Shown here: positions 8,789 to 14,246 of the stretch, piece by piece
Layout: each line of letters begins with the position of its first letter
Position numbering within the stretch: the first letter of the stretch is position 1
Origin: Acidimicrobiia bacterium
GTDB taxonomy: Bacteria > Actinomycetota > Acidimicrobiia > Acidimicrobiales > Poriferisodalaceae
Assembly: GCA_022828045.1 (NCBI GenBank)
Contig: JAJEIW010000029.1
Span: forward strand, 1 to 36,736
Reading direction: 5' to 3'
DNA: 36,736 nucleotides
Translations under genes and position numbers: made by a program
The notes under the pieces: model-generated
The model's database searches: none
Seen by the model: the letters and a program-made list of their open reading frames with translations, nothing else
Told to the model about the DNA's origin: nothing

Positions 8789-9328
8789 GTGGCACTCTGG
8801 CACGCCATGGCTCGCCATGGCGCCGGGGGCGAAACCCCCGGCGTACTCGACTCTGTGCATGACCCGGTCACGGGGCTGCCCGACGTGCGTGTCTTTGCTG
8901 TCCTGCTGGATCGCAAGCTGGCGCTGGCACGGCGGGCCCTGCAGCCCCTCTCGGTTGTCCTCTTCGAGGTGGACGGATGGGACGAACTCAGCGGCACCCA
9001 GGCACGCGTCGCCCAGCGGCTTGCAGCGCGGCTGGTTCGAGGCACGCTGCGTGAGTCCGACAGCGTCTGCCACTGCACCGACGGAGTCCTCGCCGCCATT
9101 CTCGATGACACGCCGCACAGCGGTGCCGTGTGGGCGGCTGATCGGGTGCGTCGTGAGGTAGCCGCGCGCTCTTATCACACTGGCGTGACGCTCTCGATGG
9201 GGGTGGCGAGCTATCCCACGCACGCCTTGGAGGCCGCAGAGCTGCGCGACCGCGCCTACGCGGCGCTGTTCGTGGCCCGGTCGCTCGGGCCCTCCCGGCT
9301 CGAGGTAGCCGACTCCGGCGCTCAGTAG
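8789..9328 (+). CDS. Degenerate GGDEF-domain protein (probably catalytically inactive)
   Basis: DPVTGLPD N-motif, LFEVDGWDEL, RESDSVCHCTDGVLAAILDD (GGDEF position replaced), VTLSMGVASYP. Start uncertain: GTG 8789 has an AAAGG upstream. Confidence 0.7.
   Translation: MALWHAMARHGAGGETPGVLDSVHDPVTGLPDVRVFAVLLDRKLALARRALQPLSVVLFEVDGWDELSGTQARVAQRLAARLVRGTLRESDSVCHCTDGVLAAILDDTPHSGAVWAADRVRREVAARSYHTGVTLSMGVASYPTHALEAAELRDRAYAALFVARSLGPSRLEVADSGAQ
8821..8843. repeat. Perfect 9-bp inverted repeat with 5-nt loop
   Basis: CGCCGGGGG-cgaaa-CCCCCGGCG. Confidence 0.75.
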
Positions 9329-10920
9329 CCGGCCGCGGAGCCAGTCAGTGCCCGTGGATCGGCCGCTCCGGCGAGCACGCCGTCGTGGACTTCGATGAGG
9401 TGCGCATGTCCGAAAGCGTTGTCGTGCGGAGCATCGGCTCCGACACGGTGGCCTCGCCGTCCCAGATCGGCCAGCCCGTCGGGGGATGCCCATGCGGCGT
9501 GGCCCTCGATGCGGAGCTCGAGGTTCTCGGGATCGGCCCAGGTGTCGAAGCCGGTTCCGGCCGCCGCCCCCCAGCGCCAGCGCCCCGTGCCGATGGCGCG
9601 TGCCGGGTCTTCGCCGCAGGCGAGCGAGCGCGCGAGCACCTGGAGCAACACCTGTGGCTGGGCATCGCCGCCCATTGTCCCGACAACGGACCGCAACGAG
9701 CCGTCGGCGTGCTGCACGAGTGCCGGCGCGAGCGTGTGCGGCGGCCGGCGCCCAGGTTCGTACTCGGCCGGGTGCCCCTCGTCGAGGCTGAACCCGATGC
9801 CGCGATTGTGCAGGCTGATCCGATGCGTGGGGGTCCACAGGCCCACTCCCCAGCCCGACGCGTTCGATTGGATGAGCGAGACGCCCATGCGATCGGCGTC
9901 GACCGCCGCGAGGTACATCGTGTCGCCGGTGCCGGTGCCCGCACCGAGCGGCGAAGCGACGTCTGGCGAGATCGCGGACCGGCGCGGGGCGAGCCGGTCG
10001 GGCGAGATCAGCGCATTGCCGTCGGCGCTGTCGGAGAGGACTTCTGGCCGGTCCCACCCGGCTTGCTTCGCGGCCTCGGCCAGCAGGTGGGCGAACAACG
10101 GCTCGTCGGGATCCGACGGCAAGTCCAGCCCGTCGGCAATCCATGCGCCGGCCAAGGTCAGGTAGCCCTGCGAGTTGGGGGGAACCGTCCAGATCGCGTG
10201 ATCCCAGGCGGTGGTGCACAGCGGGGTTACCCAGTCCGCTTGGGAGCGTGCCAGATCGGCTGCCGTGTACTCGCCGCTGCCCAGTTCGATGAGGTCGCTG
10301 CCGAAATCGCCTTCGTAGCAGGCCTCACGGCCTCCCTCGACGATCTCGCGCAATGCGATGGCGACGCCGGGCCGGCGGATGAGATCACCTGGCCGGCTGC
10401 CCGCCGGGTAGTCCCCGGAGTTGGCGGCTCCTTCGAGCAGCGTCACGGCGGCAGCGCCATGGGGCGAGAGCGGGAATCCGCCGCTCGCGAGGTCGATGGC
10501 GGGAGCGAACACCTCAGCCAGCGGTGCACGCCCGAACCGCCCGTGCAGCGCCAGCCATCCGTCGACACATCCCGGAATCGGGACGCTGCGGATGTCGGAA
10601 CGGAATCGCATGCGGGTTCGGCCCTCGGCGCGCAGCCCCGATGCGTCGGCGCCGCTGCCGGCGCGGCCGCTCGCGTTGAGCGCCGCGGGCGGTTCGCCGT
10701 CGGCGTGGTGGACCAGCGACCACAGGTCGCCTCCCATGCCGCACATGTGCTGGGTGGTGACCGCGAGCACCGCCGAGGCCGCCACCGCGGCATCTGCGGC
10801 TGAACCACCCGCTCGCAGCAACGCCACGCCGGCATCGCTCGCAAGGTGATCGACGCTGCACACCATGCCGCTGCGCGCGTAGCGAGTCGCGAACGGGACC
10901 TGCAGTCGGGAGTGGCTCAT
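9322..10920 (-). CDS. Gamma-glutamyltransferase (gamma-glutamyltranspeptidase) family protein
   Basis: GMVCSVDHLASDAGVALLRAGGSAADAAVAASAVLAVTTQHMCGMGGD; GDTMYLAAVDADRMGVSLIQSN; ATG at 10920. Confidence 0.87.
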   Translation of the reverse strand: MSHSRLQVPFATRYARSGMVCSVDHLASDAGVALLRAGGSAADAAVAASAVLAVTTQHMCGMGGDLWSLVHHADGEPPAALNASGRAGSGADASGLRAEGRTRMRFRSDIRSVPIPGCVDGWLALHGRFGRAPLAEVFAPAIDLASGGFPLSPHGAAAVTLLEGAANSGDYPAGSRPGDLIRRPGVAIALREIVEGGREACYEGDFGSDLIELGSGEYTAADLARSQADWVTPLCTTAWDHAIWTVPPNSQGYLTLAGAWIADGLDLPSDPDEPLFAHLLAEAAKQAGWDRPEVLSDSADGNALISPDRLAPRRSAISPDVASPLGAGTGTGDTMYLAAVDADRMGVSLIQSNASGWGVGLWTPTHRISLHNRGIGFSLDEGHPAEYEPGRRPPHTLAPALVQHADGSLRSVVGTMGGDAQPQVLLQVLARSLACGEDPARAIGTGRWRWGAAAGTGFDTWADPENLELRIEGHAAWASPDGLADLGRRGHRVGADAPHDNAFGHAHLIEVHDGVLAGAADPRALTGSAAGY

Positions 10921-10927
10921 GGATCGA

Positions 10928-10933
10928 ACGGTA
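10928..10933 (-). promoter_or_regulatory. Candidate leaderless -10 (TACCGT), GGT gene
   Basis: TACCGT, 7 nt upstream of ATG. Confidence 0.5.
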
Positions 10934-11100
10934 GACCCGAGCGGCGAGCTATGCGCACGAGCGAGCGGTGGGCAGTAGCACACCAGGCTCGGAACATGAG
11001 CGAAGAATGCGGCGCGAAGTCGTGGACTCAACGGCGGGTCGGGCGCAGATGCCGGATGCGGCAGGTGTGAGCAGTTCGTCGCCCGCTCCGGGTTGGCTCC

Positions 11101-11106
11101 TAGCAT
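11101..11106 (+). promoter_or_regulatory. Candidate leaderless -10 (TAGCAT), two-gene module
   Basis: TAGCAT, 6 nt upstream of ATG 11113. Confidence 0.5.
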
Positions 11107-11112
11107 CTGACC

Positions 11113-11505
11113 ATGCAGTCACCCCGTCGGAGGCGACCCAGACGGCGCACCGTTGACGTTCCGTCCGGCACGGATCTTGACGCGCTTGCTGACCGCGTCC
11201 GCTACACCGGCAGCCCAGAGCACAAAGATGAGCCGACGTTCGCGGGACAGCCCCGGCCTCGAGGTGACGCTTCGTTGTGCCCGCGTGAATACAACGACCG
11301 TGACCTGGTTGCCGGCTGGCTCCGAGCAGCGATCCGTGCTGGCTCGACAGGTGCACCGTGGGAAGGCGATTTCCCGCGGTATGCGTGGCACAGAGAGCAC
11401 GGCACAGTTTTTGAAGCCCGACTGGTCAATCGGGGTAACGGATCCTATAAGGGATACCCGCTGGAGCAAGATGAGTGGCCGCCGCATCTGGTGGGGCAAC
11501 AATGA
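11113..11505 (+). CDS. Small uncharacterised protein (130 aa), first gene of two-gene accessory module
   Basis: RVRYTGSPEHKDEPTFAGQPRPRGDASLCP...WLRAAIRAGSTGAPWEGDFPRYAWHREHGTVFEARLVNRGNGSYKGYPLEQDEWP; TGA overlaps next ATG (ATGA). Confidence 0.75.
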   Translation: MQSPRRRRPRRRTVDVPSGTDLDALADRVRYTGSPEHKDEPTFAGQPRPRGDASLCPREYNDRDLVAGWLRAAIRAGSTGAPWEGDFPRYAWHREHGTVFEARLVNRGNGSYKGYPLEQDEWPPHLVGQQ

Positions 11506-12803
11506 GCGGCCTTCGCTTCGACATCGAATGGCATGACGGCACCGGTATCAAGGGCCCTGAGCTTGCAGCGACGTTTGCCTCGTTTCGGATAGCTACCGAA
11601 GAGGCAGTGCTGACGCAGGTAGACGACCGTCGTGCGCGTACGCTGCGCGAGGCAATAGATGTTCCCCTCTATCCCATCGCCGAATGGCTGGTGTCGAATT
11701 GGTGGTTCTTGGCCTACGAGGCACAAAACCGCATCAACAGCGCCGATCCCGCGTGGGCACACCGCCACTGTTTGGTGACTGGTTCTGAGGGGTACGCACT
11801 TCCGGACGTGCGCTTCAGTGCTGCTGGAGGGCGAATCAACATCGACTGGAAGAGCCGAACAGCGGAACAAAGCAGGCTTGAGTTCCGCAACTCCGGCTCA
11901 ATCGACATCGATCGCGACGAGTTCTTGCGGAGTTGTTCTGAACTGATTGAGACCGTGGCTCGAAGGCTTACTGCATGCGATGTCACCTCCACTCACTTGC
12001 AAACTGAATGGGCCATGATTCAGTCCACCGACACTGACGAAATGGCGTTCTGTACGACCGCGGCAGGTTTGGGCTGGGATCCCTACGACATTGATGATGA
12101 AACGGAGCATCTCATCTTTCAGGTCGGTGAGATGCTCGGAGATCTACGAGAAGAGGCGCTGCCAGCTATCGCCGGAGCAGCACCACTGGAAGCTTGTGCC
12201 GCACTTCAGGACGCCATGGGCGTTGCTAGGCGCAATGAACTACGCCTTGGCGAACAACTGCTGGGTGCGGGGGGCCGTTGGAGCGCTTCGAAGCAACCGT
12301 GGCGGCAAGGTTACGAACTTGCTAGGCAGCTTCGGCAGTCACTCGATTTGGACGGCGAGCTCATCGCAAACACAGCGACGCTTGCCCGAGCCTTGGGTCA
12401 CGACTCGACGGCGTTTGAGCGCATGATTCATCCAATAGCGCCACTTCAGACGCTGAGCCTCATTGACGGTGTAGTGCGACGCCGAGATCACGACACTGCA
12501 TCGATCGGGTTGCGTGCATATGGGGAGACGGGCTGGCGATTCCAATTCTGCCGTGCACTTGCTGAGACAATGACCACCGATGCCGACTCGCTTGTCACCA
12601 AGGCCAGCACTGAACGGCAGCAGCGCAACCGAGCGTTCGCAGCCGAGTTCTTGGCGCCGTCCGCAGGTCTTCGTGACAGGATTTCTGATCAGTTCGTCGA
12701 CCGGGATCAAGTCGCTGATCTGGCTGAAGAATTCGGCGTCTCGCCGTACGTTGTCGAGCATCAGATCGAGAATCACCGCATCGCCGAACTCGTCGTCGCG
12801 TGA
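11502..12803 (+). CDS. Uncharacterised protein (433 aa) with C-terminal region resembling ImmA/IrrE (M78) proteins but lacking HExxH
   Basis: ATGA-coupled to upstream gene; ERQQRNRAFAAEFLAPSAGLRDRI...DQVADLAEEFGVSPYVVEHQIENH; apparently lower GC than flanks. Confidence 0.75.
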   Translation: MSGLRFDIEWHDGTGIKGPELAATFASFRIATEEAVLTQVDDRRARTLREAIDVPLYPIAEWLVSNWWFLAYEAQNRINSADPAWAHRHCLVTGSEGYALPDVRFSAAGGRINIDWKSRTAEQSRLEFRNSGSIDIDRDEFLRSCSELIETVARRLTACDVTSTHLQTEWAMIQSTDTDEMAFCTTAAGLGWDPYDIDDETEHLIFQVGEMLGDLREEALPAIAGAAPLEACAALQDAMGVARRNELRLGEQLLGAGGRWSASKQPWRQGYELARQLRQSLDLDGELIANTATLARALGHDSTAFERMIHPIAPLQTLSLIDGVVRRRDHDTASIGLRAYGETGWRFQFCRALAETMTTDADSLVTKASTERQQRNRAFAAEFLAPSAGLRDRISDQFVDRDQVADLAEEFGVSPYVVEHQIENHRIAELVVA

Positions 12804-12812
12804 TCGGAAGCG

Positions 12813-14246
12813 TCAGGCGACCGGGGGCAGCAGGACCTTGGGATTGAGCAGGCCGACCGGGTCGAGCGCCCGCTTGATGGCGCTGAAGGCAGCCAATTCG
12901 GCCTCGCTGCGGTTGAGATGCAGCTGGGAGAGCTTGGCGGTGCCGATGCCGTGCTCAGCCGAGATGCTGCCGCCGAGCTCGGCGACGTAGCGCAGCACCG
13001 CGTCATCCACCTCGTCGGCCGGTTCGGCGCCGCCGGGACCCAGCACGTTGACGTGCACGTTGCCGTCGCCGAGGTGGCCGAACAGCAGCGGCTGGGCGTC
13101 GGGGTCGGTCGCTCGGACCACATCGGGCACGCCGTCGACGAACTCGGCGAGGCGGGCCGCCGGCAAGGTCACGTCCAGCTTGTGGGGGATGCCGGCTGCC
13201 GAGATCGCCTCGGTGACGTTCTCGCGGAAGGCCCACAGCCGCTGGCGGGCTGCGGGATCGAGCGCTGCCGCTGCATCGACGACCAGATCCGCCAGTTCTT
13301 CGACTGCGGCACCGAGCTCATCGCTGGGATCGGTGCGTGCCGCGGCTTCGGCGATCAGCCACGCTCCGCTGCCGGTGCGTCGGTCGGGCAGCCTGCGATG
13401 CGGATCGCTGCCGAGGCTGCCGATGGGCGGGGTTGTGCCCAAGTGCTCCGACACAAGCGCCATGGCCCCCTCGAAAACGGCTTCCAGCGCATGCAGTGAG
13501 GCGACACCGCGGCGCAGCGCCGCGGCTGCGCTGACGGCATCGGCCGCTGTCTCGAATGCCAGCAGCGCGGTGGCGCGCTCGGGCTGGGTGGGGTGCAGTC
13601 GCAGCCGCACCCGCGTGATGATGCCGAGCGTGCCCTCGCTGCCCGCCAGCAGGCTCCCGAGGTCGTAGCCGGTGTTGTCCTTCTCGAGGCCTGCCAGGTG
13701 GCTCACGACCGTGCCGCCGGCCAGTACCGCTTCGATGCCGACTACTTGGGCTCGCATGGCGCCGTAGCGCAGCACGTTGATGCCGCCCGCATTGGTGGCG
13801 ACCATGCCGCCGATCGTGGCCGAATCGCGCGCAGCAAGGTCCACGCCCACGGAGAGACCTGACGCGGCCGCGTGTGCTTGGGCATCGGCCAGTGTCACGC
13901 CTGCACCCAGCGTCACCTGTGATGCGAGCTCATCCACCGGTTCGCAGATGTTCAACCGCCGCATCGACAGCACCGCTTCGCCGGCGAGGGGCACGCTGCC
14001 GCCGACGAGGCCGGTGTTGCCGCCCTGGGGCACCACCGGCACCCGAGCAGCCGCCAGTGCACTCATGACGGCAGCGGTCTCTGCGGTGTCGCCGGGTCGG
14101 ATCACCAGCGGCGTCGCGCCGGCGAAACGGCGTGTCCAGTCGATGCTATAGCCGGCGGTCATCTCCGGGTCGCGCAGTACGTGTGCTGCCCCGACGATTC
14201 CCGTCAGCTCGTCGATCAGCCCGGCATCGATGACGCCGGTACTCAT
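12813..14246 (-). CDS. FAD-binding oxidoreductase (GlcD/D-lactate dehydrogenase-type)
   Basis: VVPQGGNTGLVGGSVP, ATIGGMVATNAGG, LLAGSEGTLGIITRV, LFGHLGDGNVHVNV, ISAEHGIGTAK. Confidence 0.9.
   Translation of the reverse strand: MSTGVIDAGLIDELTGIVGAAHVLRDPEMTAGYSIDWTRRFAGATPLVIRPGDTAETAAVMSALAAARVPVVPQGGNTGLVGGSVPLAGEAVLSMRRLNICEPVDELASQVTLGAGVTLADAQAHAAASGLSVGVDLAARDSATIGGMVATNAGGINVLRYGAMRAQVVGIEAVLAGGTVVSHLAGLEKDNTGYDLGSLLAGSEGTLGIITRVRLRLHPTQPERATALLAFETAADAVSAAAALRRGVASLHALEAVFEGAMALVSEHLGTTPPIGSLGSDPHRRLPDRRTGSGAWLIAEAAARTDPSDELGAAVEELADLVVDAAAALDPAARQRLWAFRENVTEAISAAGIPHKLDVTLPAARLAEFVDGVPDVVRATDPDAQPLLFGHLGDGNVHVNVLGPGGAEPADEVDDAVLRYVAELGGSISAEHGIGTAKLSQLHLNRSEAELAAFSAIKRALDPVGLLNPKVLLPPVA

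Follow-up and report, generated by a model that had tools for sequence, protein, structure and literature searches.

A horizontally moving two-gene module, probably of toxin-antitoxin type, with a small protein of an undescribed family and a pseudo-protease

What is the pair of overlapping genes that sits between two housekeeping-type genes in the window (the whole stretch of 36,736 nucleotides analysed here), and what could it do? Gene 1 (11113-11505, + strand; 130 aa), a putative toxin of an undescribed family, and gene 2 (11502-12803, + strand; 433 aa), a putative antitoxin or sensor with an N-terminal domain and a degenerate M78 domain, are both present in the list of open reading frames and share an ATGA overlap at 11502-11505, as a sequence-only reading of the window had proposed. 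A GTG at 11475 is an alternative start that would add nine residues to gene 2; the ATG is the start common to the members of its family. The pair is flanked by a gamma-glutamyltransferase-like gene (9322-11106, - strand) and a FAD-linked oxidase-like gene (12813-14246, - strand), both resident and outside the module and both assigned to their families by inspection, which agrees with the housekeeping-type neighbours of that reading. The same reading had placed a shared candidate promoter, TAGCAT, ahead of the first ATG. We found this candidate -10 box of the leaderless type (TANNNT) at 11101-11106 (+ strand), at -12 to -7 from the gene 1 ATG, and its position is kept in other copies of the pair: a TANNNT lies at the identical place in the three copies at the window site (G000, the window genome, G007 and G001), in a Tessaracoccus copy and, as TAGGAT, in the G004 copy, which occupies a different site and whose upstream DNA is otherwise dissimilar. 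A TANNNT so placed suits leaderless transcription, as in actinobacterial promoters. A scan of the locus for sigma-70 two-hexamer promoters found none, and neither did a search for inverted repeats at the operator position of the pair.

Comparison by blastn with the orthologous sites of the congeners delimited an inserted segment of about 1.8 kb (10963-12797; boundaries approximate, with some 30 bp of variation between comparisons). The site is empty in 8 of 10 congeners (G002, G003, G004, G005, G006, G008, G009 and G010), in which the two flanking genes lie roughly 20-80 bp apart; in G002 the alignment stops at window position 10962 and continues from 12798, and about 80 bp of G002 separate the two blocks. 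G000 and G007 carry the pair between the flanking genes, G001 has a decayed copy there, a fusion of fragments (L010), and G004 is empty at this site, yet has the pair elsewhere in its genome. The proposal that this is an accessory module was thus borne out. Each of the 11 genomes from the genus has an ortholog of the FAD-oxidase-like flank; the matches in three congeners (L127 in G003, L128 in G010 and L129 in G009) are reported with one in-frame TGA each. The GC content falls from about 0.70 in the surroundings to 0.57-0.60 across the pair. Between G000 and G007, dN/dS was 0.06 for the small gene and 0.17 for the large gene. These low values, together with the homologs in many phyla, show that both genes are truly coding, and both are under purifying selection. 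Over the same comparison dS was 0.17-0.27 for the pair and 0.70-0.82 for the flanking genes, and the lower value of the pair points to its recent exchange.

The pair occurs in 1-4% of the sampled species, in up to five copies per genome. The loci in the tree represent nine or ten named phyla; the phylum label changes 19 times against a minimum of 9; transfer of the pair across phyla is likely, with paralogy and binning errors contributing to the label changes, and most loci are from metagenome bins. On a Massilia plasmid the pair adjoins dptH, on an Agrobacterium plasmid it adjoins restriction endonucleases and an integrase, and one viral contig with the pair is prophage-like, its gene content by inspection including transposases, a serine recombinase and genes of tail type; a search of the large protein against phage records gave no match. 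Together, the empty sites, the tree and the plasmid and prophage-like loci describe an accessory, mobile and patchy element, a generic trait of type II toxin-antitoxin systems. When 150 neighbours of 23 loci were compared with 128 genes of 20 random windows from the same genomes, the neighbours of the pair included MTases and transposases, and CRISPR and HEC-01 genes turned up in the random windows as well; defence genes were present in both sets.

These results bear on the idea that nothing toxic is involved and that the two proteins are subunits of an ordinary accessory enzyme or of a stress-response complex. Such a complex would be expected to show the strong purifying selection seen on both genes; however, the patchy presence, the multiple copies per genome together with the decayed copies, and the exchange across phyla all suit a mobile conflict module better, and we consider this explanation unlikely. 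From the fused remnants in L247, L246, L248 and G001 (L010) we conclude that the module decays often; in the first three (L247:1492-1917 among them), which are deletion remnants, the end of the small gene continues into internal pieces of the large one.

Two other loci had neighbours of a different kind. A Phd/YefM-like antitoxin-type ORF (by inspection; L009:906-1166) lies just upstream of a pair whose large gene is intact and whose small gene, shortened by truncation, encodes 61 aa. Beside the pair on an Allorhizobium plasmid (L119:6829-8180), a gene for a 98 aa protein is followed by one for an ATP-grasp-like protein, an arrangement that by inspection resembles a graspetide peptide-modification operon.

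How closely are the two genes tied to each other? Using the small protein alone as query against 85,462 species genomes, we obtained 80 loci from at least 9 phyla, and a large-gene homolog lay directly downstream of the small gene at every one of them; nearly all these pairs overlap or lie a few bases apart, and a few of the 80 large genes are incomplete, through truncation or because the contig ends within them. Separate searches of a second sample, 381 genomes, with the small and the large profile showed that all 14 genomes with the small gene also had the large one (Fisher p ~1e-24), and the small gene adjoined a large gene or its remnant at 20 of 20 sites. Homologs are thus not routinely found apart, which the sequence-only reading had named as telling against it. 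Orphan small genes were seen in neither search (80 loci; 20 sites). Counted from the large side, 33 of 39 full-length copies with upstream room have a small or sister-small gene, the other 6 having none detected, and most of the paralogous large genes in the named genomes likewise have a small partner. Distances within the small and large families are correlated (mirror-tree r 0.85, with none of 2000 permutations as high), a value to which host relatedness contributes. The pair is a conserved, overlapping two-gene operon whose members are rarely apart, as is generic for type II toxin-antitoxin systems, and its original description as a coupled module of a small uncharacterised protein and a large M78-like pseudo-protease is supported.

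The strongest clue to the polarity of the pair came from a single case, Rhizobium etli plasmid pRetIE4771b (L004:5126-7089). Here a TumE protein, which matches PF20126 above the gathering score, is encoded directly upstream of the large module and replaces the small protein, and the large module (N-terminal domain plus pseudo-M78 domain) is fused to an N-terminal ArsR-like HTH. TumE is an experimentally demonstrated translation toxin (PMC10584680). ImmA-domain antitoxins with varied and swapped toxins are established in RosmerTA, and NetFlax assigns roles by guilt-by-association logic (both from PMC10440598). By this logic, the position of TumE upstream of the large module suggests an antitoxin role for the large protein and a toxin role for the small protein that occupies this place in the pair, which supports the earlier idea of a small effector with a large neutraliser. 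The R. etli protein itself looks like a fused TumA-type antitoxin (ArsR-HTH, N-terminal domain and pseudo-M78 domain), an arrangement of which we found no mention in the accessible part of PMC10584680.

With the roles reversed, the large protein would be the effector, for example via its N-terminal domain, whereas the small, basic one would inhibit it or serve as its adaptor. Like many antitoxins, the small protein is indeed short and basic and is encoded by the first gene of the operon, and the six full-length large genes with no detected small gene indicate that the large protein can stand alone. However, if the large protein were the toxin these orphan genes would be lethal, its R. etli counterpart carries a fused DNA-binding domain and has the proven toxin TumE (PMC10584680) as its partner, and M78-domain proteins are antitoxins in RosmerTA (PMC10440598), which makes this polarity distinctly unlikely. 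That there are several orphan large genes and no orphan small genes agrees with the small gene being the toxin.

The putative antitoxin has two parts. Residues ~1-200 (11502-12101, + strand) form the N-terminal domain, with a WW motif, a similarity to DUF5984 at residues 50-157 that is below the Pfam threshold, and a CdiI-like fold match. The C-terminal part contains a Peptidase_M78 (IrrE-like) domain by Pfam at residues 363-422 (12588-12767, + strand), including the element RAFAAEFLAP (12630-12659); PF06114 scores 23.7 bits against a gathering cut-off of 22, in keeping with the ImmA/IrrE-like C-terminus read from the window alone. At the M78 (A)HExxH position, residues 346-355 (12537-12566, + strand), stands the degenerate metal site RFQFCRALAE. 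None of the 61 aligned large proteins has HExxH, and the first His is Arg in 60 of them, so that the word pseudo-protease proved apt, and the RAFAAEFLAP element is retained in the family despite the loss of the metal site. The predicted model of the large protein (pLDDT 94.5) has CapP (7t5t, prob 1.00) as its best PDB fold match, with IrrE farther down the list; its match to the CdiI immunity protein 5ffp is weak (prob 0.90, E 0.12; residue range not given). Searched against PADLOC at E<=1, the large protein (P0002) gave only a weak capP match (0.0033). We also considered recurrent large genes reduced to the N-terminal domain as evidence on domain roles and rejected them, several being frameshifted remnants; the one case kept is on the mobilizable plasmid pLAtc3 of Acidithiobacillus caldus (L121:2890-3585), where the N-terminal domain alone is encoded beside an N-6 DNA methylase.

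The M78 domain, together with the accessory and mobile distribution, brings to mind the regulatory pair of a mobile element, in which, as in ImmA/ImmR, the large protein would be an antirepressor and the small protein a repressor. Yet the small protein has no HTH, either by Pfam or in its predicted model, the protease site is gone in 61 of 61 large proteins, and the insertion in the window holds two genes only, which leaves nothing to regulate. We regard this possibility as highly improbable.

If the small protein is the toxin, of what kind could it be? Invariant in the 63-65 aligned small proteins are Y31, G33, E36, H37, K38, C56, P88 and W92, and N106, G110, Y112 and G114 are nearly so. The SPEHK motif (S34-K38; 11212-11226, + strand), with its invariant E36, H37 and K38, and the YKGYPL motif form the conserved core of the family; C56 (codon 11278-11280, + strand) and H37 are the most conserved polar residues. 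The AlphaFold2 model, built with 63 sequences (pLDDT 83.9), has a loose, motif-rich N-terminal half, then a predicted helix (residues 63-76) and a four-strand meander (79-117) ending in YKGYP (11299-11463, + strand). This order of helix and four-strand meander corresponds to the RelE/BECR topology. The best Foldseek matches were RelE/ParE proteins at E ~0.5 and TM ~0.25, below significance, and RelE/ParE and CDI toxins were over-represented, with weak scores, among the first matches. The predicted topology and the company of these weak RelE/ParE matches make the RelE/BECR likeness a lead, and are the reason for the idea that the small protein may be an RNase.

Searches of the small protein and its homologs against Pfam, PADLOC, PHROGs and NCBIfam, and of the small protein against PDB sequences, PDB folds and a viral fold library, returned nothing significant. 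The window protein (P0001) had no PADLOC match at E<=1; two small homologs had weak matches to NsnC (0.039, in one of 65 homologs, and 0.007), for which a literature search found no paper. PF20126 (TumE) matched neither the window protein nor any of the 65 homologs.

A sister clade retains the protease site. Its small proteins (L090, L114, L122, L123 and L158) share homology with ours in their C-terminal halves (hhalign probability 96, E 1e-9) and keep a His and the Cys that corresponds to C56, and HExxH is present in the large proteins of L090, L114, L158 and L161. Sister large proteins match the RmrA and CapP profiles, over the M78 part only. The window genome has a sister pair of its own (G000:C310:28673-29953; L114, 1450-3578 and 3609-4205, - strand), in which the small protein ends in VVYRATPTNPGVSYHGFP and the large protein has an intact HEICH protease site; it lies behind a gene with a weak match to DUF6088 (AbiEi-like antitoxin).

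Does the pair belong to a known system? RosmerTA (RmrT/RmrA; NetFlax D25 ImmA antitoxins) is described in PMC10440598 as two coupled genes, the larger encoding an M78-domain antitoxin with which different toxins combine, in a mobile distribution, and in these respects it resembles the window pair. In contrast to RosmerTA, the N-terminal domain of the window antitoxin is unlike an HTH, its M78 site is lost, it has no RmrA match, and the small protein has no RmrT or other PADLOC match. Because the large protein did not match RmrA, the small protein did not match RmrT and HExxH is absent, we did not file the pair under RosmerTA; putatively it works like RosmerTA, while by membership it stands outside. 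TumE-TumA (PF20126; PMC10584680) shares the gene order and role through the R. etli TumE, whereas Pfam shows no relationship between TumE and the window small protein. CapP/CapH of CBASS and ImmA/ImmR share the M78 fold with the window large protein, but CapP and ImmA are active proteases that act on a repressor, and the window pair has no HExxH and encodes no repressor. The pair is neither TumE-TumA, CapPH nor ImmAR. In its fold the large protein weakly resembles CdiI 5ffp, which recalls CdiA-CT/CdiI, but the module has no secretion or delivery part and its putative toxin gene is small and free-standing. The predicted COG2856-Xre-RelE/PIN systems (Makarova 2009, PMC2701414) likewise combine an M78-family protein with small toxins in toxin-antitoxin-like operons, but COG2856-Xre proteins have HEXXH and an Xre HTH, and the window large protein has neither. 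The pair appears to be unnamed in the literature, and an unnamed NetFlax node may already contain it.

We think that the pair is probably a horizontally moving module of toxin-antitoxin type, with an undescribed small protein, whose toxin role we infer, and a pseudo-protease antitoxin. How would a module with such pairing, coupling, selection and mobility, with HExxH lost and, once, with its small partner swapped for TumE, work? Gene 1 would encode a small toxin, most likely acting on nucleic acids (RNase-like), with Y-x-G-S/N-P-E-H-K...C as its N-terminal motif region, and gene 2, translationally coupled via the ATGA, would encode its antitoxin. The N-terminal domain of the latter may act like an immunity protein, binding and masking the toxin, and the M78 fold at the C-terminus, its protease site gone, may have been kept as a sensing or binding platform or scaffold. 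The toxin would then be released by a trigger, for example DNA damage or infection by a phage, and growth would be arrested. Toxicity, direct neutralisation, RNA as the target and the trigger are the steps that we infer.

The module adds a widely spread, uncatalogued toxin-antitoxin-like family, with a toxin candidate that had no match in the profile libraries searched. Its matched clades differ in whether the M78 domain is active or dead, so that the role of the ImmA protease domain in RosmerTA-like antitoxins becomes testable by comparison. A further, tentative proposal, possible in our view and a good deal less secure than the reading above, is that it represents a new toxin superfamily (Y-x-G-[SN]-P-E-H-K ... 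C ... G-x-Y-[KH]-G-[YW]-P) that has its own fold and is accompanied by ImmA antitoxins of a class of their own, in which catalysis has been lost. If this is true, the sister clade, with its related toxin and active protease, would mean that the family records how control of a toxin went from proteolysis to binding alone, possibly in the service of phage defence.
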